From contig NZ_RKHK01000001.1 of assembly GCF_003752405.1 (NCBI RefSeq), positions 186,001-250,000 of the forward strand: a stretch of 64,000 nt of DNA. Direction: 5' to 3'. Below, piece by piece: positions 23,665 through 24,962 of this stretch; the stretch's first letter is position 1, and each line of letters opens with the position of its first letter. Both the position numbers and the translations under genes were made by a program. The stretch is from Bogoriella caseilytica (GTDB lineage: Bacteria > Actinomycetota > Actinomycetes > Actinomycetales > Actinomycetaceae). The notes under the pieces are model-generated. The model did no database searches. It was given only the letters and a program-made list of their open reading frames with translations, and had not been told where the DNA came from.

Positions 23665-23691
23665 GGTCGGGCGGCCCTCCACCGCCCGACC
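23665..23691 (-). promoter_or_regulatory. Strong hairpin between mraZ and rsmH
   Basis: Perfect 10-bp inverted repeat GGTCGGGCGG/CCGCCCGACC with a 7-base loop in the 174-base mraZ-rsmH spacer. No T run follows on the minus strand. It could be a processing site, a protein site or a partial terminator that sets the level of rsmH and downstream genes. I see no ORF in this spacer. Confidence 0.5.
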
Positions 23692-23785
23692 AGGACTCCC
23701 TCCGCCTGCTCTCTGGCGCCGGGGAAGTGCGTCAGAGTGCGGGGGGAGACCTCGCCCTACGGGGGAGATCGCGCCAGTGCGGTCA

Positions 23786-24217
23786 TCAGAAGAGGCCGGG
23801 AACCACCTCCTCGGCGGTCTCGGCAAAGGCTTCCTCCTGCGCACTGAGGTAGGTGTCCCAGGCACTGGAGTCCCAGATCTCGATGCGGGTACCCGCGCCG
23901 ATCACGGCGAGCTCCCGATCCAGACCGGCGTACTGGCGGAGGTTGGCGGGGATGGTGATGCGGCCCTGCTTGTCCGGTTGATCGTCCATCGCGCCGGAGA
24001 GGAACACGCGCAAGTAGTCCCGCGCCTGCTTGGACGTCACCGGTGCCTGCCGCAGGCGGTCATGCATCTCTTCGAACTCGCGCGTGGGGAAGGCGTAGAG
24101 GCAGCGTTCCTGACCACGGGTCAGGACCACGCCAGCGGCGAGCTTCTCCCGGAACTTCGCCGGAAGGATGAGCCGGCCTTTGTCATCCAGGCGGGGCTCG
24201 AAGGTGCCCAGAAACAC
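23786..24217 (-). CDS. mraZ: Transcriptional regulator MraZ
   Basis: AbrB-fold DNA-binding protein, first gene of the dcw cluster; in characterised bacteria it represses its own operon. 143 aa with two SpoVT/AbrB-like repeats: [23 protein letters not shown] (first half, DKGR) and [13 protein letters not shown] (about 81-93). Starts at GTG with AGGAGG nine bases upstream. Its likely binding sites are the repeated TGGRG pairs upstream at 24298-24508. Confidence 0.95.
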
Positions 24218-24297
24218 GACTCATCACCTCCTGTCGACTCCGCGATCTTCCCGTTCGCCCCACAGTACTCCACTTCCCTCCCCCTGTCCCCGGTCAT

Positions 24298-24508
24298 GCG
24301 GGAGAAAGTGGGCGTGTCGCGGGCGAAAGTGCAGGTAGATGCTGGTGGAGCGAGGTGGAGGAAGAATCGACCCCAGCGGGGACGGACGTCACCAGATCGG
24401 GACGTCGACGGCGGCGACACCCCACTGCGCCGGGGGTCACGGCAGGGCAGAGCGCCGTGGTGGGGGGAAGTGGGGGGACCGGCGATGCCGCAGTGGAGGG
24501 AGGTGGAG
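24298..24508. promoter_or_regulatory. Repeat-rich mraZ control region with TGGRG pairs
   Basis: The 364-base spacer between mraZ and the DUF3040 gene holds no gene. On the plus strand it has three pairs of direct repeats, each pair exactly 10 bases apart: TGGAG at 24346 and 24356, TGGGG at 24461 and 24471 (an 8-base match TGGGGGGA), TGGAG at 24494 and 24504. A 13-base repeat GCGGG(A/C)GAAAGTG occurs at 24298 and 24319, 21 bases apart. MraZ is known in E. coli to bind TGGGN repeats separated by 5 bases, the same 10-base period. The role as MraZ operator is inference. Confidence 0.6.
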
Positions 24509-24514
24509 CATCAG

Positions 24515-24553
24515 GGCAAAGAACAAGCCGGTGACCCGAGTGGGCCACCGGCT
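24515..24553 (-). terminator. Intrinsic terminator of the DUF3040 gene
   Basis: On the minus strand a 12-bp stem (AGCCGGTG, a G-U pair, CCC) closes on loop ACTC and is followed by TGTTCTTTG. It begins about 30 bases after the DUF3040 stop. This isolates the dcw control region from upstream transcription. Confidence 0.8.
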
Positions 24554-24581: not shown

Positions 24582-24962
24582 CTACTGCTGGTCGCGACGC
24601 CGCTCTTGCCAGCGGTCTTCTTGCCGCTGCATGAAGCCACCGGAGGGCTTCGGCTTGTTCGGCTTGAGCTGCTGGTCGGCCTCGGGAGCCGCGCCGTCCG
24701 AACTCGAACCACCCGTGCTCATCGCGAGCAGGACACCGCCGAGCATGGCCACGAAGCCCAGGACTCCCACAAACACGAGCTGCGTCGCCACGCCGCTGAC
24801 CAGGGCGATGAGGCCTAGGGCGAAGAGGACGATTCCCAAGGTGAGCCGGCGCGCCGAGGGGCGTGCACGCTCAGCGAGGGTGTTCGCGAGTTTGGGGTCG
24901 TCAGAGCGCAGCTGCTCCTCCATCTGGTCGAGCATGCGCTGCTCGTACTCGGAGAGAGGCAT
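24582..24962 (-). CDS. DUF3040 membrane protein
   Basis: Small membrane protein of unknown function found in actinobacteria. 126 aa. MPLSEYEQRMLDQMEEQL at the N-terminus is the family signature; a cytoplasmic segment (DPKLANTLAE) follows, then two membrane helices (about 38-55 and 60-80) and a polar C-terminal tail rich in Q, R, P, K. The start is well supported: AGGAGG lies six bases before ATG. A strong terminator follows. Confidence 0.92.
   Translation of the reverse strand: MPLSEYEQRMLDQMEEQLRSDDPKLANTLAERARPSARRLTLGIVLFALGLIALVSGVATQLVFVGVLGFVAMLGGVLLAMSTGGSSSDGAAPEADQQLKPNKPKPSGGFMQRQEDRWQERRRDQQ

Follow-up and report, generated by a model that had tools for sequence, protein, structure and literature searches.

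MraZ is the widely conserved regulator encoded by the first gene of the division and cell-wall cluster. In the accounts given by PMC8475190 and PMC7761207, it represses from direct repeats at its own promoter and is taken as an octameric ring, although the operators described consist of three or four repeats in one direction. The mraZ upstream region of Bogoriella caseilytica carries further repeats of this type on the strand opposite to the gene, which raises the question of whether they form part of the MraZ operator and how the ring could use them. We analyzed this region within a window of 64,000 nucleotides (window coordinates are genome coordinates minus 186000) and in relatives of the host.

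Repeat pairs in the gap upstream of mraZ

The MraZ protein of the window has the D-K-G-R motif conserved in both of its AbrB-like halves, and residues D11, K13, G14, and R15 together with D82, Q84, G85, and R86 are invariant in an alignment with 17 relatives; entries for MraZ structures exist in the PDB. The limits of mraZ and of the DUF3040 gene (Table 1) leave an intergenic gap of 364 bases, in agreement with the gene-free region reported in the initial annotation of this DNA. A hairpin at the far end of the gap is perhaps the terminator of the DUF3040 gene, marking the end of the upstream transcription unit.

Exact TGGRG-N5-TGGRG pairs occur 34 times in the whole genome (3.24 Mb), and four of them lie inside the mraZ gap, where about 0.004 would be expected per 364 bases at the genome density (Poisson probability about 1e-11). 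The stricter pattern GTGGRG-N4-GTGGRG is found 10 times genome-wide, and the same four pairs account for 4 of the 10; the repeats of the gap are thus GTGG-type units at an exact 10-bp period. Three of the pairs are on the plus strand, opposite to mraZ, and correspond to all three TGGRG pairs of 10-base period that the initial annotation had listed. Its placement of the repeats on the strand opposite to mraZ holds for these three, but it had missed the fourth pair, which is on the mraZ strand.

By its sequence pattern, this minus-strand pair is an MraZ operator of the ordinary kind that overlaps the -10 of the promoter. The -10 hexamer TACTGT, assigned from sequence, lies inside the operator and is accompanied by a weak -35 candidate, GGACAG, while relatives carry TTGAC and TAATGT or TAAAGT at the aligned promoter positions. 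The promoter operator lies on the mraZ strand at the promoter, and the three plus-strand pairs lie neither on that strand nor at that position. Because the ordinary operator already sits on the mraZ strand, the three plus-strand pairs are classed from their sequence and position as extra inverted copies upstream, that is, as auxiliary sites and not as the promoter operator.

An MraZ operator has been described in E. coli (Eraso et al. 2014, as cited in PMC8475190 and PMC7761207). The K-12 sequence reads TGGGA-aattg-TGGGG-caaag-TGGGA (TGGGAaattgTGGGGcaaagTGGGA), in the same orientation as the minus-strand pair of the gap, and its repeats bear out the 10-base period that had been ascribed to it. 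In both genomes, TGGRG-like units recur at 10-bp intervals on the mraZ strand immediately upstream of the gene, but the operator of the window includes the -10, and additional inverted pairs are found here 88 to 236 bp upstream of the -10 unit, with none visible in K-12. Judged from the repeats, the orientation of the operator in the gap is unchanged relative to E. coli and the inverted set is an addition. The earlier proposal that MraZ-type repeats reach far past a single operator is supported.

The 13-base repeat at 21-base spacing that had been noted in the same region is present as well, but it is marginal against chance, since 4 of 200 Markov-shuffled versions of the gap contained an equally good repeat. 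It was therefore rejected as a feature of its own; its two copies are perhaps decayed boxes.

Table 1. Features of the mraZ region (window coordinates; pair distances are measured to the -10 unit)
Feature	Position	Strand	Remarks
Match to mraW RNA (RF01746)	23672-23768	minus	between mraZ and mraW; 45.5 bits, below the cut-off of 50
mraZ	23786..24217	minus	143 aa, GTG start; Pfam MraZ PF02381, 129 bits, two stretches
Promoter MraZ operator, GGGAG-GGAAG-TGGAG-TACTG-TGGGG	24258..24282	- (mraZ strand)	assigned by sequence pattern; exact pair 24258-24272
-10, TACTGT	24262-24267		inside promoter operator; assigned from sequence
-35 candidate, GGACAG	24284-24289		weak
13-base near-repeat, GCGGG(A/C)GAAAGTG, two copies	24298..24331	+	copies 24298-24310 and 24319-24331, 12/13 identical, 21 apart
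ACCTGC, core of CTGACCTGCG	24331..24336	-	in register with relatives
Near inverted MraZ-type pair, GTGGAGCGAGGTGGAG	24345..24360	+	exact pair 24346-24360; 88 bp
Far inverted MraZ-type pair, GTGGGGGGAAGTGGGG	24460..24475	+	exact pair 24461-24475; 203 bp
Far inverted MraZ-type pair, GTGGAGGGAGGTGGAG	24493..24508	+	exact pair 24494-24508; 236 bp, and 33 bp from the GTGGGGGGAAGTGGGG pair
12-bp hairpin	24526..24553	.	3' of DUF3040 stop; found as inverted repeat
DUF3040 gene	24582-24962	minus	neighbour upstream of mraZ, same strand

Inverted pairs across the order and the class

We collected 107 order-level mraZ upstream regions, 29 from a whole-genome search (one per genus, with the window's own included) and 78 from named genomes, including Georgenia, Cellulomonas, Cryobacterium, and Actinomyces. 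These regions contain 143 sense exact pairs, 142 of which are within 139 bases of the start codon, and 111 inverted exact pairs, all of which are at -139 to -523; a control with the reversed motif gave 6 pairs. Conservation in relatives, on which the initial annotation had staked its proposal, was thus observed across the order-level regions, and the genome in which the repeats precede mraZ encodes the MraZ protein. When the middle letter of the unit was allowed to be A, G, or T and redundancy was removed, an inverted pair was found in 69 of 89 regions of the order and in 9 of 37 regions from the remainder of the class. Within 130 bp of the -10 unit, a pair was found in 4 of the latter and in only 39 of the 89, and this low number of near pairs in the order counts against reading them as auxiliary operators. 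The scan covered Actinomycetota and one E. coli strain, K-12, whose upstream region was judged by eye and in which no inverted copies were seen. Outside the class, inverted pairs are present in just 4 of 24 readable regions, and 1 of the 4 belongs to the class. One large-genome genus in the class gave no MraZ match in any of the nine genomes sampled.

The inverted pairs have the same recognition core as the promoter operator. The base that completes GTGG, which the search did not require, is 95-100% conserved in the far pairs and in the near pairs located about 88 bp from the -10 unit, whereas the two units of the near pairs at about 98 bp differ, with 100% and 69% conservation. Promoter spacers begin with TA, partly by the choice of anchor, and a TA start is found in 0 of 123 distal spacers. 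Because the GTGG core is kept and the distal spacers have no TA, the inverted copies resemble MraZ sites that lack a promoter.

These data also bear on what else the pairs could serve. The pairs point away from mraZ, and the upstream gene was called divergent in a good part of the relatives, as would be expected if their target were the neighbouring gene or a promoter that is divergent or antisense. However, the pairs occur with either orientation of the neighbour (called mechanically) and are equally present where it shares the strand of mraZ, which is the case in the window, and the missing TA start is at odds with a promoter, which would need a -10. We therefore rejected this very unlikely explanation. 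It is even harder to credit that the reader is another regulator or that the repeats work as a G-quadruplex. In Dietzia, the mraZ promoter region is bound by MtrA (PMC9602371), and for S. aureus a G-quadruplex ahead of mraZ has been suggested (PMC11796246), but the inverted pairs share with the promoter operator the core GTGGRG, repeated at 10 bp. In addition, the published MtrA motif, GTCACAgcg, is dissimilar to the repeats, and the four-tract motif (four tracts of at least three G with short loops) is found neither in the gap nor in any of the near sites of 43 relatives, so both candidates were rejected. Compensation for a short promoter operator was rejected as well, since no association was seen between inverted pairs and shorter promoter operators.

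The far pairs differ between genomes in number and place. In one relative (L023), CCCCA units stand in tandem about 400 to 300 bases before mraZ, every 12 bp (CTCCCCACTGTG) and not at the usual 10.

Helical phasing and a conserved element near the promoter

The distance from the nearest inverted pair to the -10 unit, with the TA-containing unit as the anchor, is 86-90, 96-100, 107-109, or (once) 121 bp, and it is 88 bp in the window; a looser anchor had given 78 and 111 in place of 88 and 121. Among pairs within 130 bp, no values fall between these classes. The resultant is 0.82 at 10.7 bp in 43 non-redundant regions, and the maximum in 5000 jittered sets is 0.57. In the 98-bp class, the linker has diverged in sequence and kept its length. 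On the MraZ tree, most branches of which are weak, seven or more switches of distance class are counted; the independence of these changes is moderately supported, and there may be fewer than seven independent events. In the relatives, the near pair is thus located at whole helical turns from the promoter operator, with the caveat of shared descent. Between one far inverted pair and another, the steps are 22-23, 33-35, or longer, with a best period of 11.4 bp, and half-sites in the distal part are spaced at 10, 12, 22, and 34.

The phasing and the fixed orientation are relevant to the possibility that the inverted pairs are decoys, a local reservoir that buffers free MraZ and does not act with the promoter site. 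The variable far pairs would suit such a role, as would the disturbance of division by MraZ overproduction in Dietzia (PMC9602371), but a decoy needs neither a kept orientation nor a kept helical phase, and we consider this explanation unlikely.

A second conserved element in the same mraZ promoter accompanies many of the near pairs. In 35 regions, the word CTGACCTGCG, with at most 2 mismatches, starts 66-68 bp ahead of the -10 unit, usually 21 bp past the start of the inverted pair, and in the 88-bp class it is placed 67 bp before the -10 unit. With at most 1 mismatch, it is found anywhere in the searched stretch in 43 regions, and the reversed word is found in none.

Candidate mechanism and comparison with known operators

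The combination of orientation, core, and phase suggests that MraZ reads the inverted pairs together with the promoter operator. We propose that the gap is a two-part operator for MraZ autoregulation, in which actinobacterial auxiliary sites are joined to the promoter operator, probably by bridging; we regard this proposal as about evenly balanced. The promoter part covers the -10, and MraZ on it would shut off transcription of mraZ and of the dcw genes that follow. The putative auxiliary operators, mostly paired units, are inverted and upstream, with the nearest held at whole helical turns from the promoter part, and a ring of identical DNA-binding subunits could grip this near operator together with the promoter operator along a single face of the DNA. 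Such bridging would take the form of a small loop or of two rings in contact and would make autorepression cooperative, while the far pairs would raise the MraZ concentration locally. We infer MraZ occupancy, repression, and bridging at the inverted pairs from sequence, and bridging by one ring, or the contact of two, is in our judgment the likeliest reading, which could equally well hold or fail. The initial annotation had suggested that a ring could wrap the DNA, but a single ring with two grips, or a pair of rings, would fit better than one continuous wrap, because such a wrap would be expected to require every repeat to point the same way. More tentatively, in most of the order and patchily in the class, the ring may simultaneously hold a pair of dcw promoter operators that are inverted relative to each other, in a short loop of fixed helical phase, with a putative second factor bound at CTGACCTGCG inside the loop in one subgroup.

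Upstream activation is the main rival of bridging, because activator sites would be phased as well. MraZ on the near inverted site, centred at about -98 or -108 from an estimated start site, would act on the RNA polymerase face and help a promoter with a poor -35, and the promoter site would repress at higher MraZ. The helical phase relative to the -10 unit is likewise typical of upstream activators, and the -35 candidate of the window is indeed poor. However, phased sites also precede promoters with a good TTGAC -35, and activation leaves the far pairs unexplained, so that we hold this alternative to be doubtful.

Looping repressors such as those of lac and gal combine a promoter operator with an upstream operator in helical phase. 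The region in the window likewise pairs a promoter operator with a helically phased upstream operator, but its putative reader is a many-subunit ring on asymmetric direct repeats, the operators are mutually inverted, and the looping is predicted from their arrangement. Other MraZ sites are closer in sequence. As cited in PMC8475190, Mollicutes MraZ sites are AAAGTG[T/G] repeats, and the account in PMC7761207 gives those of Burkholderia cenocepacia as four 7-nt GTG repeats with 3-nt spacers. The core AAGTGG and the 10-bp period are common to these sites and the window, but the passages on them describe a single promoter array and do not mention an inverted upstream array. The open-access papers searched contained no account of an inverted second MraZ array. 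A conserved, phased, inverted second set of repeats allows a direct and simple test of the role of the remaining subunits of the ring, and it would add an unnoticed layer to division control in actinobacteria, for example in Cellulomonas, Georgenia, and Microbacteriaceae. If true, the ring-built repression loop would be of a kind not described before and would put the many subunits of MraZ to use.

The mraW RNA motif was also considered for the repeats of the gap and rejected, as the gap has no Rfam match to RF01746 and the only match is located downstream of mraZ. In C. diphtheriae, this motif has been reported upstream of the mraW start site (PMC5784534). The conserved loop of the match in the window, GCACTTCCCC, shares CACTTCCC with the same-strand inverted MraZ pairs, without the second G of GTGG, which is likely a coincidence. 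In another relative (L029), the mraZ-mraW interval seems to hold a tandem of two hairpin-like copies centred on GGGGAAGT, resembling the mraW RNA motif.
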